This document shows, piece after piece, positions 4,329 to 41,878 of a DNA stretch of 41,878 nt. Source of the stretch: Nitrospirota bacterium. Lineage in GTDB: Bacteria > Nitrospirota > Thermodesulfovibrionia > Thermodesulfovibrionales > Dissulfurispiraceae. Position 1 is the first letter of the stretch; the number at the start of each line of letters is the position of its first letter. A program made the translations under genes and the position numbers. The notes beneath the pieces are model-generated. The model saw only the letters and a list, made by a program, of their open reading frames with translations, searched no databases and was not told the DNA's origin. The DNA is taken from positions 1 through 41,878 of the forward strand of contig WSNO01000016.1 of assembly GCA_009773415.1 (NCBI GenBank), written 5' to 3'.

Positions 4329-5843
4329 ATGAAAGCTGTCTTTCTTGATCGGGACGGCACTCTGATTGAAGATCGCGGATACATAGCATCGCCTGATGAC
4401 GTTGTATTTCTGCCTTCAACGTTCCTGGCCCTGCGCAAACTGTCTAAGAATTATCTGCTGTTTTTGGTAACGCAGCAGTCCGGCGTTGCCCGCGGCATTC
4501 TGACCACGGAGAACGTCCTGCGCGTCAATAATTACATCGAGCGGAAACTTTCAGACGCAGGAATTCATATTCAGCATTCATATTTTTGCCCTCATGATAC
4601 CGAAGACAGGTGTCCGTGCAAAAAGCCGTCACCCATTTTTCTCTCTGACGCTGCTGTCAGATGGGGGCTTGACCTCGCCGGCTCATACGTCATTGGTGAC
4701 CACCCTCACGATGTCGAGATGGCAAAAGCTGCAGGAGCGCAGGGAATCTATGTGCTAAGCGGGCATGGCAGAAAGCACCGCGCAGAATTGCAGGGAGATT
4801 GGCTTGTCGCGCATGATGTAGGCGAAGCTGCTGACTGGGTCGCTGCGCTTCATTGTTACGGCAATCAGCCGGCCCTTCTTGACGAAGCAATTCAGAAAAG
4901 TGCGGACGCTGTAAAAAAAGGCGGGGTGGTGGTCTTTCCGACCGAAACTGTCTATGGTGTCGGGGCCAGCGCATTCAATGAAAAAGCTATTTCCCGCATT
5001 TACCGCATGAAAGGCAGGCCGGCGTCAAATCCGCTCATCGTTCATGCGGCGACGTCCGAAAAGGCTTTTGAGCTGACTACGTCGCGCAATGGCAAGGCTG
5101 AACTCCTGGCGGACCACTTTTGGCCAGGACCGCTTACGCTTATCATGCGGGCACACGATTCGGTGCCTTCACCAGTCAGAGCGGGGTTGCCGACCGTTGC
5201 TGTTCGTGTTCCCGGAAATCCTGTCGCTCGGGCATTTATTCAGGCTGCAGGCTGTCCAATTGCGGCTCCCAGCGCAAATCCGAGCGGATTTTTAAGTCCT
5301 GTATCTGCCCTGCATTCGGTCGGCTTCGTTCATGATGAGCCGGATGCCATCCTTGATGGCGGTGAATGCAGATTCGGGATTGAGTCAACCATCATTTCAC
5401 TTATCTATCAGACTCCGCTTGTGCTGCGTCAGGGCGCAATCCCTCTGGAAACCATCCAGAGACTCATCGGAGATGTGCACGTTGCAGACCCTTTGCGAAG
5501 CACCGTGGAGGCTCCGGGAATGCTGAGGCGCCATTATGCTCCCAAAACACCGTTGCACGTTATACCGGCGGGCCTGCCGCTGGCTGGATATCTCGGATCT
5601 GTGGGCGTGTTAACCGCAGGTGGTCGAACTTCCCCGGATGACCTGGAGGTAGCTGAGTTGACAAGAGAACTTCCGGGGGACGGGGAGATGATTCTTGCCG
5701 GACTGTATAATGCCCTGCATGATCTCGACAGCGCCGGGTTGGACAGTATTGCAGTGCGTCTCATGGGAGCAGCAGCAACCTGCCCGGTTCTGTCTGATCG
5801 AATTTGGCGCGCATCATCTCAGATAAAAGAGGAATACAGGTGA
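4329..5843 (+). CDS. GmhB-type HAD phosphatase fused to Sua5/TsaC threonylcarbamoyl-AMP synthase
   Basis: Two enzymes in one 504-residue chain. Residues 1 to about 180 are a HAD-IIIA phosphatase of the D-glycero-D-manno-heptose 1,7-bisphosphate phosphatase type: FLDRDGTL holds the nucleophile Asp, VTQQSG follows, the zinc loop is FCPHDTEDRCPCKKP, and YVIGDHPHDVEMA is the acidic motif. From about residue 190 the chain is a full Sua5: FPTETVYGVG, MKGRPASNPLIVH, WPGPLTLIM and APSANPSG of the catalytic YrdC domain, then PGMLRRHYAPKTPL and a C-terminal Sua5 domain. Sua5 makes threonylcarbamoyl-AMP for tRNA t6A. The start at 4329 follows AAGGGGG with good spacing. There is no stop or frameshift at the junction, so the fusion is read directly. 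Separate genes for these functions are the norm. Confidence 0.9.
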   Translation: MKAVFLDRDGTLIEDRGYIASPDDVVFLPSTFLALRKLSKNYLLFLVTQQSGVARGILTTENVLRVNNYIERKLSDAGIHIQHSYFCPHDTEDRCPCKKPSPIFLSDAAVRWGLDLAGSYVIGDHPHDVEMAKAAGAQGIYVLSGHGRKHRAELQGDWLVAHDVGEAADWVAALHCYGNQPALLDEAIQKSADAVKKGGVVVFPTETVYGVGASAFNEKAISRIYRMKGRPASNPLIVHAATSEKAFELTTSRNGKAELLADHFWPGPLTLIMRAHDSVPSPVRAGLPTVAVRVPGNPVARAFIQAAGCPIAAPSANPSGFLSPVSALHSVGFVHDEPDAILDGGECRFGIESTIISLIYQTPLVLRQGAIPLETIQRLIGDVHVADPLRSTVEAPGMLRRHYAPKTPLHVIPAGLPLAGYLGSVGVLTAGGRTSPDDLEVAELTRELPGDGEMILAGLYNALHDLDSAGLDSIAVRLMGAAATCPVLSDRIWRASSQIKEEYR

Positions 5844-37359: not shown

Positions 37360-38037
37360 TCAGGTTTTTATGTGCCTGCACTTCGGATACGAACTGCACC
37401 CTATAAACTTTTCTCCTGCCCTCGGCCCATTCCTTGCTGTCCTCTCAACGAGCCGGCCACCGCATTTCGGGCATTTGGCTGTATCGGAATACCTGTCTCT
37501 GAGACTTTGGGCGTGCTGACGGCTTGATCCCTGTCCATTCCTTAATTTTTCCAAATTCCGACGGAGCATCTCCACTTCGGATTCTGAGAATATCACTTTA
37601 GTAAAACTCTCGATGTATGAGGATAGTCCGCGGCTCATCACATTTGGCGGAAAATCGCTTTTCAGTTCCGCATCTCCGATGAAGAATACAATTGAGTGGA
37701 TTTTGCTGTGTTCAACCTGAAGACATTCAGACAGGGCTTTTGTGTGCTTGTAATTCTGATGCAAAGGGTTCTGAAAATGACTTTTCTTGCCGAATAGGTT
37801 CTGAGTCCAGCTTTTCTGCTTCTCTCCGCCATAGATCCAGCCGTTGTAGTTCTTTGTTTCAATTACAAAAATCCCGTACCTGGATAACAAGATATGGTCG
37901 ATTTGCGTTGTTCCATTCTCTGTCTGAATAATGAGATTGTGAAAGCGCATGTATGTTTCTTCGTCAAGTTTTGCCCACATTCCAAATTGTGTGGCCTTCT
38001 CTCCAAACCACCCCTTGAGAATACTCAGCAGAGACAT
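37360..38037 (-). CDS. NERD-domain protein with C-terminal topoisomerase-type zinc ribbon
   Basis: A 225-residue protein. The NERD nuclease-related domain is at residues 1-130: QTENGTTQIDHILLSRYGIF and VIETKNYNGWIYG hold the D and E-x-K residues of the PD-(D/E)xK fold. A four-cysteine zinc ribbon (AKCPKCGGRLVERTARNG, then FIGCSSYPKCRHI) of the topoisomerase I type lies at the C terminus. Such proteins are probable nucleases, often found in defence or mobile regions. Base composition is A/T-richer than the hsdR beside it. It lies downstream of hsdR on the same strand, 163 nt away. Confidence 0.88.
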   Translation of the reverse strand: MSLLSILKGWFGEKATQFGMWAKLDEETYMRFHNLIIQTENGTTQIDHILLSRYGIFVIETKNYNGWIYGGEKQKSWTQNLFGKKSHFQNPLHQNYKHTKALSECLQVEHSKIHSIVFFIGDAELKSDFPPNVMSRGLSSYIESFTKVIFSESEVEMLRRNLEKLRNGQGSSRQHAQSLRDRYSDTAKCPKCGGRLVERTARNGPRAGEKFIGCSSYPKCRHIKT

Positions 38038-38200: not shown

Positions 38201-40290
38201 TCATGAAACCAGCCCGAAGTAACGCTCGAAGAATGCAGCGAGCTTGTCCAGCACGGTCTGCTTCTTAAGCGCATGACCGTTCTCCTTCGAGAACCGTGAT
38301 GCCGGCGGCAATACCAGGGTGATGGCGGTGCCGGCGGTCGGAATCGCGCCGTTGCGGAAGGCGTTGTCGATAAAGGCCCGGGTCTCCTCGGCGTTGAGGT
38401 TTTCAACCCGGATGATGCGCTCCAGTTCTTCGGCCTTTCTGGCGACCACGAAGGCCTGCCATTGGGCATCCACCTTGCCCCTGGTGGACACGGAATCCAC
38501 AAACTGCTCGATGAGGTCCTTCTTGTTGCGCAACGAAGGGCTGGCGTTGACGGCCCGTTCGATGTTGGCGCGGATTTCCTTGTCCTGCCCGCTGCCTTTG
38601 GCCTTCAGATACTGCTCCACCAGCATCAGGATGTAATCGACGTTTATTTCGACCTGTTTGATCAGCTCGATCTCGAACACCACATCGTCATTGATGGATT
38701 CCTTCTGTGCTTCCGAGGCGTTTCGGAACTCGGCGTAGAGGTTCAGGTAAACGCTCTGGTAATCCTGAAAGTCGCGTTGGCTGAGGATTTCGTTACCGGC
38801 AAGCTCGTCGAAGGCGGTGAGGATGTTCTTCAGCCGCAGGATGGAGCCAAACAGCTTGATAAAGGCCTTCTGCGCCGTCTCGCCGACAATGGCCTGCCCC
38901 AGCAGCGGAAACTGTGCCAAAAGCTCGGCAATCTTGGTCTGGTATTCCTGGAAATACTCGGCATAGGGCTTCAGAAGCACGATGCCCCTGGCGTCCTTGT
39001 TGCCGAACAGGGCCAGGGCATCGTTGGTGGCCTGCTCCAGGTTGCGGAAGGAGATGATGTTGCCGTAAGTCTTGACCGAATTGAGGATGCGGTTGGTGCG
39101 CGAATACGCCTGGAGCAGCCCGTGGGCCTTCAGGTTCTTGTCCACCCACAGGGTATTCAGGGTGGTCGCGTCGAAGCCGGTCAGGAACATGTTGACCACG
39201 ATGACCAGATCCAGCTCGCGGGTTTTCAGCCGCTGGGACAGATCCTTGTAGTAGTTCTGGAATTTGTCGGCAGTGGTGTCGAAGCTGGTGCCAAAGAAGG
39301 CGTTGTAGTCCTTGATGGCGGCGTCGAGAAAGTCGCGCGAGCTCTGATCCAGCCCCTCCGTCTCGAATTCTTCCTCGCCCAGCAGGCCGTAGGCTTCTTC
39401 GTTTGCGGCAAAGCTGTAGATCAGACCGATTTTGAGCCGTTGCGCCTTGGGCAGTTCTTTTTGCTGCGCGGCGAATTCGGTATAGTAGCGCCTGGCGGCA
39501 TCAATGCTGGCGGTGGCGAACAGCGAATTGAATCCAGCCAGCCGCTTGCCGTGCATTGTATAGGAGGCGGCACGCCTGGTCTTTTGGTCGAAATGCTCGC
39601 GGATGTAGCCCACGATCTGGCTGATACGTTCCGGCGCCAGGAGCGCCCGCTCGGTGTCAATGGCCGACACCTGCTTGTCCTTGATGCCGGGCGCGGTCTT
39701 GATGGTGTTGATGTAATCAATGCGAAAGGGCAACACATTCTTGTCGTTGATGGCATCGACAATAGTGTAGGTGTGCAGCCTGTCGCCAAAGGCCTGCTCG
39801 GTGGTACGCCTTGAAGGGTCGCCGCCGGTGTCCGCATTGTCGGCAAAGATCGGTGTGCCGGTAAAGCCGAACAGGTGGTAGCGTTTGAATATCCGGGTGA
39901 TCTCGGCGTGCATGTCGCCGAACTGGCTGCGGTGGCATTCATCAAAAATCACCACCACATGCGCCTCATACACCGGGTGTTTTTTGTTGTTCGCCACGAA
40001 GCGCGAAAGCTTCTGGATGGTGGTAATGATGATGCGGGCATTGGCATCTTCCAACTGTTTTTGCAGCACCGCCGTGGAGGTGTTGGAGTTGGCCGCGCCC
40101 TTCTCGAAGCGCTCGTATTCGCGCATGGTCTGGTAGTCCAGATCCTTGCGGTCGACCACAAACAGCACCTTGTCGATGTCGGACAGGCCGCGCGCCAGTT
40201 GCGCCGCCTTGAAGCTGGTCAGGGTCTTGCCGCTGCCGGTGGTGTGCCAGATGTATCCGCCCGCCGCCTCGGTGCCCAGATGCCGGTGTT
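38201..40290 (-). pseudogene. hsdR: Type I restriction enzyme subunit HsdR, C-terminal part (after frameshift)
   Basis: Motor and C-terminal portion of HsdR, the restriction and DNA-translocation subunit of type I R-M systems. It contains the helicase motifs YIWHTTGSGKTLTSF (Walker A), VVIFDECHRSQFGD (DEAH-like box), LFGFTGTPIF and the later LVIVVNMFLTGFDATTLNTL and LLQAYSRTNRIL. A helical C-terminal region runs to FGLVS. It has no start codon of its own at the proper place; it continues the upstream fragment after a -1 shift near 40270-40300. Adding one base to 38201-41301 gives a 1033-residue protein, the normal HsdR size. The hsdM and hsdS genes would lie beyond the right edge. Confidence 0.9.
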
Positions 40291-41301
40291 CGTGCCGGTG
40301 GCGATGCGCTGCAGAATCTGCTCCGTCGCCGCAATCTGATAGGGGCGCATCACCAGGAGCTTGCGGTCCACGTCGAACACGCAGTAGCGGGTGAGTATAT
40401 TGAGCAGCGAGTGCTTGGCAAAAAAGGTTCGGGCAAAGCCGTCCAGCTCGGTGATGGGCCGGTTCTTTGCGTCGGCCCACCAGCTGGTAAAGGCAAAACT
40501 GTTGGCGGTTTTACTCTTGCCGCGCTTGGTTTTCTGCTCGTCCAGGTGGCCTTCGCGCACCGTGTTGCTGTAATACTTGGTTAGGGTACCGTTGCTGATG
40601 ACGAACAACTGCACATACTCGAACAGTCCCGAACCCGCCCAGAAACTTTCGCGCTGGTAGCGGTTGATCTGGTTGAAGGCCTCGCGGATGTCCACGCCCC
40701 GGCGTTTCAATTCCACATGCACCATCGGCAGACCGTTGACCAGGATGGTCACGTCGTAACGATTCTTGCGCGTTGCAAAATTCCCCTCCCCGGGAGGGGT
40801 GCCCGTCAGGGCGGATTTATTCCCCTCCTGTGGAGGGGTGGCGCCGTAAGGCGACGGGGTGGTCTCGTACTGGTTGATAACCTGCATGCGGTTGTTGTGA
40901 ATGTTCTGCTTGTCGATGAGATAAATATTTTTAATCGTGCCGTCGTCGCGCTTGAGCAGTTGCACATGGTCTTCCTGGATGCGCGTGGTTTTTTCCATCG
41001 TGCCGTCGTTGGCGCCGGCAATGCAGGAGCCAAAGAAGCGCTGCCACTCGGCGTCGGAAAATGCTATCTTGTTGAGCGCCTCAAGCTGCCGGCGCAGGTT
41101 GGTGACCAGCGCCGCCTCCGAGGTGATAGACAGGTATTCGTAGGCCTGCTTTTGCAACTGGGCGATAAAGTCCCGCTCCAGCGCCGCTTCGCTCTGGTAG
41201 GACGCTTCGCGCACGCCCTCTGGCACGAATTCGGCAACAACGGTGCTTTCGCTGGACAGCGCAATCGGCTCGTAGCGGTAGGGTTTGAAGTCTTCGGTCA
41301 T
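40219..41301 (-). pseudogene. hsdR: Type I restriction enzyme subunit HsdR, N-terminal part (before frameshift)
   Basis: N-terminal nuclease portion of HsdR. It includes SYQSEAALERDFIAQLQKQA, then RYDVTILVNGLPMVHVELKR with the D and E-x-K catalytic residues, and YCVFDVDRKLLVMRPYQIAA, the Q-tip leading into the motor. ATG 41301 follows GGAGG, provided by a palindromic repeat. Residues about 146-174 are an insertion (TTPSPYGATPPQEGNKSALT, then GTPPGEGNF) encoded by two more copies of that repeat, in frame, just before the nuclease motif. After GTNTGIW the frame is lost and a false tail runs to the stop at 40219. Confidence 0.9.
40779..40862. repeat. Two palindromic repeat units inside hsdR
   Basis: Unit A (about 40779-40818) and unit B (about 40819-40862) each contain a G/C hairpin CCCCTCC-n-GGAGGGG followed by a small hairpin (GCCC-GTCA-GGGC in A, CGCC-GTAA-GGCG in B). 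They are in frame with hsdR and encode a TPPxEGN-type peptide. The same repeat family flanks the DUF559 gene. Confidence 0.85.
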
Positions 41302-41375
41302 AAATTCCCCTCCTCTGGAGAAGTGCCGAAAAGCAGGGGCTTTAACCTTGCAGGCAGGTTGAAGTCTTCGCTCAT
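41298..41375 (-). CDS. 25-codon ORF copying the hsdR start
   Basis: ATG 41375 opens MSEDFNLPARLKPLLFGTSP and ends EEGNL with TGA overlapping the hsdR ATG. Its first six codons repeat the hsdR start (MSEDFN against MTEDFK), and it ends in a degenerate palindromic repeat (41301-41340). Upstream, its own ATG overlaps the DUF559 stop. It looks like a by-product of a 74-nt tandem duplication rather than a functional peptide, but it may keep ribosomes coupled to hsdR. Confidence 0.4.
   Translation of the reverse strand: MSEDFNLPARLKPLLFGTSPEEGNL
41301..41340. repeat. Degenerate palindromic repeat at the hsdR start
   Basis: A decayed copy of the repeat, with CCCCTCCTCTGGAG intact but the second hairpin lost. 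It carries the GGAGGGGAATTT that serves as hsdR ribosome-binding site. Confidence 0.65.
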
Positions 41376-41812
41376 AAATTCCCCTCCTGTGGAGGTGTAC
41401 CCGTAAGGGCAAAATTATTCCCCTCCTGTGGAGGGGTGCCCGTAAGGGCGGGGTGGTTCTGCAAGAATGCCAGCACCCCTTCCATATTATGCAATATGTC
41501 TTTGGCCGATATTCGGATTACCGTCAGCCCCAGGCTTTCCAGATAATCGTCACGTTGTGCATCGTTCTCCTGCCGCCCCAGGTGAGAGCTGCCATCGGCT
41601 TCGATCACTACCCCTTTTTGCGCGCAGAAAAAATCCACAATGTAGTTGCCGATGATTTTCTGCCGGTCGAAGTCCAATCCTTTGAAACTTTTCCGCTTGA
41701 TCTGATTCCATAACAAAGCTTCGTGCAGAAGACCGGCCTTGCGTAGTTCCCTGGCGCGCTCTTTCAGCTTGGGGTTGAAGGGCAAGGACATGTAGCGGGT
41801 TGTGTTTCTCAT
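41372..41812 (-). CDS. DUF559 (Vsr-like) endonuclease-domain protein
   Basis: A 146-residue protein. The PF04480/DUF559 domain has LRKAGLLHEALLWNQIKRKS, FDRQKIIGNYIVDFFCAQKG and VVIEADGSSHLGRQ, the D/E pattern of the restriction-endonuclease-like fold shared with Vsr. The last 25 residues (HPALTGTPPQEGN, then NFALTGTPPQEGNL) are encoded by two palindromic repeats. The start at ATG 41812 abuts a further pair of repeats in opposite orientation; ATG 41791 is an alternative. It lies upstream of hsdR, where no conserved R-M gene is expected. Its true function is not established; a role in moving or fixing the repeats is a hypothesis. Confidence 0.85.
   Translation of the reverse strand: MRNTTRYMSLPFNPKLKERARELRKAGLLHEALLWNQIKRKSFKGLDFDRQKIIGNYIVDFFCAQKGVVIEADGSSHLGRQENDAQRDDYLESLGLTVIRISAKDILHNMEGVLAFLQNHPALTGTPPQEGNNFALTGTPPQEGNL
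41376..41458. repeat. Two palindromic repeat units at the 3' end of the DUF559 gene
   Basis: Units C (41376-41416) and D (41417-41458) each have CCCCTCC-TGT-GGAGG (unit D extends to GGAGGGG) followed by CCC-GTAA-GGG. Both are coding, giving the tandem TGTPPQEGN tail. They match the units inside hsdR. Confidence 0.85.
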
Positions 41813-41878
41813 AGGCACCACCCCGTCAGGCTTCGCCTGCCACCCCTCCAAAGGCACCACCCCGTCAGGCTTCGCCTG
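41813..41878. repeat. Inverted-orientation palindromic repeats at the 5' side of the DUF559 gene
   Basis: Two exact 27-bp direct copies (41813-41839 and 41852-41878) are separated by CCACCCCTCCAA. Each has outer arms ACCACCCCG...CACCCCTCC around the hairpin AGGC-TTC-GCCT. Relative to the units on the other side of the DUF559 gene they are reversed, so the gene is bracketed by inverted repeats. The array may continue past the window edge. Confidence 0.85.

Follow-up and report, generated by a model that had tools for sequence, protein, structure and literature searches.

Organization of the Repeats around the DUF559 Gene

Does a small Vsr-like nuclease mobilize the palindromic repeats that bracket its own gene? 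This question is raised by one end of the window (i.e., the whole stretch of 41,878 nucleotides under analysis, bases 1-41878 of a 97.9-kb scaffold), where genes and repeats are arranged on the reverse strand in the order hsdM, hsdS, repeats, DUF559, repeats, hsdR. An earlier note on this DNA had described at least seven copies of one repeat family within 1.1 kb, placed on both sides of the DUF559 gene in opposite orientations, at its 3′ end as coding sequence, at the start of hsdR, and twice inside hsdR as a TPPxEGN peptide. The analysis of the locus bore out each of these points. Seven copies are located at 40780-41878 (1.1 kb), and at least two further ones lie past the N gap (an assembly gap) that forms the window edge at 41878, within the repeat cluster; two copies read there are followed by hsdS and hsdM. 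Elsewhere in the window, just two isolated ACCACCCCG 9-mers are present, at 4922 and 37254. For the two 9-mer arms, 6 and 4 occurrences were counted in the window, compared with 0.25 and 0.27 expected, and for the hairpin CCCCTCC-N-GGAGGGG, 3 compared with 0.01.

The DUF559 gene (PF04480; 41372..41812, − strand; Pfam E-value 8e-32) encodes a Vsr-like PD-(D/E)XK nuclease of 146 aa. On its 5′ side, a palindromic element with the structure ACCACCCCG-hairpin-CACCCCTCC (41816..41854, + strand, exact match) corresponds to a tandem 39-bp unit without its GGAGGGG arm, and a second copy (41855..41878, + strand) is cut by the N gap; the tandem 39-bp palindrome units (41816-41878) enter this short gap, and the cluster runs on to contig 38 position 41974. 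On the 3′ side, the copies are partly tandem and lie on the − strand. A complete element (41417..41457, exact match, fold z −3.6), composed of the stem CCCCTCC/GGAGGGG, a second hairpin GCCC/GGGC and the triplex arm GGGGTGG, is in frame with the gene and encodes TGTPPQEGN, while a partial copy with the stem and the second hairpin but no arm (41378..41412, − strand) is in frame at the C terminus. The final ~25 residues of the nuclease are encoded by repeat copies, and the C-terminal tail is predicted to be disordered.

A degenerate copy (41303..41333, − strand) is located directly upstream of the hsdR start codon. Within the N-terminal part of hsdR (HSDR_N; 40219..41301, − strand), a complete element (40819..40863, − strand, exact match) encodes TTPSPYGATPPQEGN in frame, and a second, arm-less copy in the same insert (40780..40814, − strand) encodes ALTGTPPGEGN, so that both a TPPQEGN and a TPPGEGN peptide are embedded in a repeat-derived insert at HsdR residues 149-176 (40774..40857, − strand). 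Both copies are absent from the EcoR124I HsdR (2w00), and the phmmer alignment to this protein skips exactly these 28 residues. The insert is not a conserved loop of HsdR: it is absent from EcoR124I, and in the HsdR of a bin of another lineage (locus L029) this site is taken by another peptide that also derives from a palindrome but is different.

Near 40,270-40,300 the frame of hsdR shifts, and the coding sequence is taken up by the ORF 38201-40480; the gene is apparently frameshifted (40219-40480), the HSDR_N frame stopping at 40219 and the helicase frame spanning 38201-40480, which may reflect either decay or a sequencing error. Beside hsdR, the ORF 37360-38037 resembles, by eye, a nuclease with a NERD domain and a zinc-finger tail. 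In hsdS, a 12-bp tandem repeat (EAEL units) lies between the two specificity halves (locus L006, 2728-2773, i.e., contig 38, 42728-42773); in other type I systems, repeats of this kind alter the spacing and, with it, the specificity.

The host genome (2.46 Mb, with a stated completeness of 100%) harbors this single DUF559 gene, and all 5 exact repeats are found at this locus, at most 1.3 kb apart. The pattern searches on which the genome-wide repeat counts are based revealed no dispersed copies in the host genome away from the DUF559 cassette.

Structure of the Repeat Element

The unit had been described as conserved arms around a small hairpin. These parts are present, but the description is incomplete, the main hairpin being the CCCCTCC/GGAGGGG stem and the small one a second hairpin. 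When complete, the element has the sequence ATTCCCCTCC-nnn-GGAGGGGTG, followed by the second hairpin and by GGGGTGGT. It thus consists of a stem-loop CCCCTCC-nnn-GGAGGGG, then a sequence-variable but pairing second hairpin, and then an arm of the ACCACCCC/AACACCCC/ATACCCC type, which on the G-rich strand is GGGGTGG. As single-stranded DNA, the two hairpins are both predicted to fold well, with z values of about −3.3 to −3.7. The second hairpin pairs by at least 3 bp in 156 of the 171 elements retrieved from 70 loci (27 after shuffling), in spite of the 78 distinct sequences occupying this position, which indicates that its pairing, rather than its sequence, is conserved.

On the G-rich strand, the arm corresponds to the purine strand of the stem read backwards, with G facing G and A facing either T (260) or A (78); read from sequence, this rule is the code of an antiparallel purine-motif triplex. 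It fits 244/268 hairpins at DUF559 loci, whereas a maximum of 132 was reached when the stems were swapped between elements. In the six commonest stem classes, 86-94% of the elements obey the rule of their own class, and mostly less than 15% that of another. By reading, the window copies at 40819-40863 and 41417-41457 also obey the code, and the rule holds in other DUF559 clades, whose elements are simpler, with a TAA loop replacing the second hairpin. It is very probable that arm and stem are related by a triplex-type rule at the level of sequence; that they form an actual triplex in cells may be held with lower confidence, and a G-quadruplex or a G-hairpin fold would give rise to a similar mirror pattern. 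The test for stop-codon avoidance by the element gave a modest signal (5.29 open frames vs. 4.87).

The earlier note knew of no described system of this kind; this appears to hold for the link with the nuclease, but not for the repeats. Intrastrand-triplex motifs have been known in E. coli for 30 years as BoxC, later rediscovered as PIT elements and TM_ECO, with 23 copies counted in MG1655 and 3610 across 262 genomes of proteobacteria (Hoyne 2000, 2002; Holder 2015; PMC4666352). The triplex of TM_ECO was demonstrated in vitro, no function or origin of BoxC/PIT is known, no mobility genes were found nearby, and no associated enzyme was named (PMC4666352). The window element shares with them the succession of a C-rich arm, a loop, a purine arm, a second loop and a third strand in the purine-motif code (G-G-C, T/A-A-T), as well as the occurrence in many genomes, often as inverted pairs. 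However, TM_ECO has 9-nt strands and a 3-nt second loop, whereas the window element has 7-nt strands and, in place of the 1-6 nt loops allowed in the search of PMC4666352, a pairing and co-varying hairpin of about 14-19 nt; because of these differences in strand length and second loop, it can be considered a relative with the same code and not a member of TM_ECO. Unlike BoxC/PIT/TM elements as described, it surrounds DUF559. PMC4666352 makes no mention of DUF559, of an endonuclease or of ycjD, and no published link between DUF559 and palindromes or REPIN-like systems was found in the open-licence literature, where a closed paper could be missed. Since that paper and the DUF559 literature accessible in this way are silent on it, the link between nuclease and repeat appears to be new.

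The strong single-strand fold of the element might also suggest a role at the RNA level, the palindromes being transcript terminators or processing signals around an often-transferred gene, which they could insulate, and their spread being incidental. Nevertheless, the arm follows the G-over-G code used by purine-motif DNA triplexes, reading frames contain elements in either orientation, and neither promoter nor terminator activity was seen for BoxC/PIT elements (work cited in PMC4666352), which makes such a role very improbable.

Association of DUF559 Genes with Palindromes across Bacteria

DUF559 loci were retrieved from four sources: genomes of the family to which the host belongs (31), named genomes covering many phyla (80 loci), finished records of a plasmid collection, and a sample of the host's phylum (148 genomes). 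Of 133 DUF559 genes, belonging to more than 15 phyla, 121 have a complete element with the exact arm code at a distance of up to 300 bp, compared with 2/133 shuffled flanks and 2/218 windows placed 1000-1300 bp away. The arrangement was found in most of the bacterial phyla sampled. The density of hairpins is 8.8/kb within 100 bp of DUF559 and 0.015-0.05/kb at a distance of 4-10 kb (0.015/kb at 7-10 kb). Hairpins are present at 76/80 loci, the reversed-sequence control hairpin at 7/80. Moreover, the arms face the gene: the nearest upstream motif is GGGGTG in 64 cases and CACCCC in 9, and the nearest downstream one CACCCC in 66 and GGGGTG in 2.

The type of stem was also compared with the phylogeny of the nuclease. 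Along the tree, 9 changes of stem type are required on each side of the gene, compared with means of 20.6 and 16.2 after shuffling, and none of 1000 shuffles was as low; since the tree is short and poorly resolved and the shuffles leave relatedness in, this result points to a clustering by clade and is not a proof of co-evolution.

The repeats are not equally common in genomes with and without the gene. Among the 148 genomes of the same phylum, an expansion of hairpins was observed in 29/53 of those with a strong DUF559 and in 7/95 of the others (p 2.6e-10), and within families, too, DUF559 genomes are richer in hairpins (p ≤ 5e-5; control pattern, p 0.33). In 24/53 strong-DUF559 genomes, the tested hairpin pattern is not expanded.

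The elements are G/C-rich and of low complexity, and many loci come from metagenome bins, so that the pattern could in principle be artefactual, owing to base composition, to assembly or to mis-binned contigs. This explanation is already refuted for practical purposes: the reversed control patterns, the shuffled flanks and the distant windows all gave values near zero, which also rules out chance, and the arrangement occurs in isolates and finished plasmids; E. coli K-12 has ycjD beside fabI, and the palindromes next to ycjD were seen in strain H240. The physical and evolutionary coupling of DUF559 with the palindromes can be regarded as practically certain. A phage origin of the gene was discarded, a relative being found in just 3/50,697 phage records.

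The DUF559 Nuclease

The predicted structure of the window protein (mean pLDDT 80) is nearest to a DUF559 protein of Neisseria gonorrhoeae (3hrl, Z 14.5), followed by the catalytic domain of the homing endonuclease I-Bth0305I (3r3p, Z 11.2), with which a sequence similarity is also detectable, and by Vsr (1cw0, Z 10.1), an enzyme acting on T:G mismatches. Residues E33, D62, E73, H79 and D86 are invariant in an alignment of 34 sequences. On the basis of its fold and of these conserved acidic and histidine residues, DUF559 is a Vsr/EDxHD-type PD-(D/E)XK nuclease. To our knowledge, no biochemical test of a DUF559 protein on these palindromes has been described.

The sole DUF559 protein that we found studied in a cell is VsrA of Caulobacter, which carries a DUF559 domain and causes the DNA-damage response of cells missing a methylase; the site with which VsrA is associated, YGCCGGCR, is a different one (PMC12907096). 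This indicates that members of the family can act on the chromosome; flanking triplex palindromes are no part of the Vsr/VsrA system.

Together with the Vsr fold and the instability to which triplex repeats are tied in E. coli (PMC4666352), the action of VsrA on the host chromosome (PMC12907096) would be compatible with a pairing based on repair or maintenance, where DUF559 resolves a triplex or a hairpin and the nearby palindromes, autoregulatory or selected as substrates, are not moved by it, just as the gene is not. This explanation leaves unaccounted for the in-frame cassettes flanking the gene in unrelated genes, the inverted arrangement, the near-identical cassettes in different lineages and the MITE-like arrays of pairs reported below, and it is therefore considered improbable.

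Cassettes, Dispersed Copies and In-Frame Insertions

The distance from hairpin to hairpin across the DUF559 gene is about 440-520 bp (median 473 bp), which delimits a compact cassette. In Methylomonas, Muricauda and Weeksella, the palindromes occur solely as flanks of the cassette, and the same is true for the window's genome. In other DUF559-bearing genomes they are dispersed: Azospirillum harbors 39 hairpins (0 for the control), with pairs ~94 bp apart, and a termite-gut Oscillospiraceae bin (G180) gave 97 hits, many of which are inverted pairs ~50 bp apart. In three genomes (G166, G169 and G180), the loops of the dispersed copies match those of the genome's own cassette. G180 also contains many copies of ~170-bp MITE-like units (L181-L185), whose ends resemble TAGACTTCTTTCAAAACC and surround tail-to-tail palindromes.

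Cassettes or solo elements are inserted in frame in HsdR, in type ISP and other R-M methylases, in HsdS, in a radical-SAM protein and in QueA. The HsdR insertions lie directly before the ATPase (SWI2/SNF2) domain in several loci, several of them in Bacteroidota, and those in QueA were found in six alphaproteobacterial loci, at two positions. Besides that of EcoR124I, two empty sites were recognized, as a 155-residue insert of QueA is absent from the solved QueA structures and the hsdS of the window's contig lacks the insert carried by its relative at L029. The DUF559 of L029 is 82% identical to that of the window, and the two cassettes are near-identical in spite of the different lineages. At L054 and L062, HsdR contains an in-frame GIY-YIG nuclease domain in addition to a DUF559 cassette. 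No annotated transposase belongs to the unit, and no target-site duplication is evident at the hsdS filled/empty pair, which is, however, diverged.

These recurrent sites, together with the kinship in fold and sequence to the intron homing endonuclease I-Bth0305I and with the persistence of repeats in E. coli genomes lacking DUF559, might suggest that the palindromes came first: another process (replication slippage or another enzyme) would spread them, and DUF559, as a homing endonuclease, would cut them so that its gene lands in between, being a parasite of the repeats and not their mobilizer. Under this scenario, the cassette-only genomes, including the window's, should contain free copies, but none accompany the cassette there; furthermore, expansion is rare in genomes without DUF559, and the comparison of QueA and HsdR with their PDB homologues leans towards a cassette that arrived complete with both palindromes. 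Homing into pre-existing palindromes is thus regarded as unlikely, although less so than a role in repair.

The reading that we favor, with a probability of about 0.58, is that DUF559 and its inverted triplex-type palindromes form a mobile selfish cassette, in which the nuclease would be the mobilizer of the repeats. The data supporting it are the anatomy of the element, its flanking position and orientation, the co-variation of its parts, the association with copy number and the in-frame inserts with their empty sites. The core of the interpretation in the earlier note, the coupling of a Vsr-like nuclease with palindromes in a minimal cassette by analogy with RAYT/REPIN, is strongly supported beyond this genome by the flanking, the inward orientation, the distribution of stem types on the tree and the enrichment; in the host genome itself, however, the repeats have not dispersed away from the cassette. 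Neither movement nor a target-site duplication was observed, and the persistence of elements in E. coli genomes without ycjD and the expansion in 7/95 genomes without a strong DUF559 count against a mobilizing role.

According to this reading, the DUF559 gene and its two inverted flanking palindromes would be a single cassette, mobile together with the palindromes that it sheds. Once single-stranded, each palindrome may fold into a stem-loop with the third strand lying over its purine strand, forming an intrastrand purine triplex in which, in the window lineage, the connecting loop would be the second hairpin. We infer that the nuclease recognizes this folded end, and probably also matching or naturally accessible targets, and that it nicks or cuts them; repair or replication might then copy the cassette, or the palindromes alone, to new sites. 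Insertions that keep the reading frame open would survive within genes, as in hsdR, in hsdS and in DUF559 itself. The odd C-terminal and internal peptides (TPPQEGN, HPSTGGE) of restriction and other proteins would be explained by the repeats.

Comparison with Other Palindromic Repeats and Nucleases

The arrangement resembles that of REP/REPIN elements and their RAYT transposases, in which short inverted palindrome pairs are dispersed and also flank a dedicated enzyme gene, and the class of the palindrome tracks the clade of the enzyme; the dispersed inverted pairs of Azospirillum and G180 share this REPIN-like trait. On the other hand, RAYTs are Y1 HUH transposases associated with a GTAG tag, whereas here the enzyme is a PD-(D/E)XK nuclease, the GTAG tag is missing, and cassettes lie in frame inside genes; membership of the RAYT/REPIN systems was ruled out on enzyme type and tag. 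With the EDxHD/Vsr-like homing endonucleases (I-Bth0305I, PDB 3r3p), the DUF559 proteins share the catalytic fold, sequence similarity and the location of their genes within other genes. They differ in being encoded by a free-standing short gene between palindromes, with no defined target site yet; the inserts in HsdR, QueA and methylases read in frame, and no intron or intein was recognized at the loci read. Rickettsia palindromic elements are likewise inserted in frame in protein genes; we know of no nuclease partner for them and, as far as we know, their sequence is unrelated.

BoxC Elements and ycjD in Escherichia coli

In E. coli K-12, the DUF559 gene ycjD adjoins fabI, and in strain H240 triplex-type elements come after ycjD. 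BoxC was first noticed beside envM, as fabI was formerly called. The E. coli copies that were read have T-T-A and C-C-G second loops, as described for types A and B. The ycjD gene is present in about 3,360/5,426 E. coli genomes and missing from about 2,000, and in the genomes without it the elements are found at similar numbers of matching places.

It is conceivable, albeit at somewhat less than even odds, that DUF559 nucleases are dedicated mobilizers of BoxC/PIT triplex repeats throughout bacteria, each clade reading the three-stranded fold as a transposon end with its own co-evolved triplex code. We know of no mobile element in which a three-stranded DNA fold is the signal for end recognition, and the present data suggest that a DNA triplex could act as such a signal in DNA mobility. 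The BoxC/PIT repeats, reported in hundreds of genomes, would gain their first candidate enzyme and mobilizer, and DUF559, a widespread family still filed under "unknown function", a candidate substrate; through this link, tests on purified protein and oligonucleotides become possible for the repeats and the nuclease alike.

Three E. coli intervals (hrpB-mrcB, alx-sstT and nrdA-nrdB) were considered as clean insertions and rejected, since most of their variability consists of segments that were deleted between palindromes or replaced by other sequence. In the nrdA-nrdB interval (L127, L193, L194), a BoxC-like element is present in one strain and apparent BIME/REP palindromes in others. Lastly, in the sapF-fabI interval (L111, L195), the one ycjD-less genome that was read harbors an RND efflux operon and a TetR-type regulator upstream of fabI.
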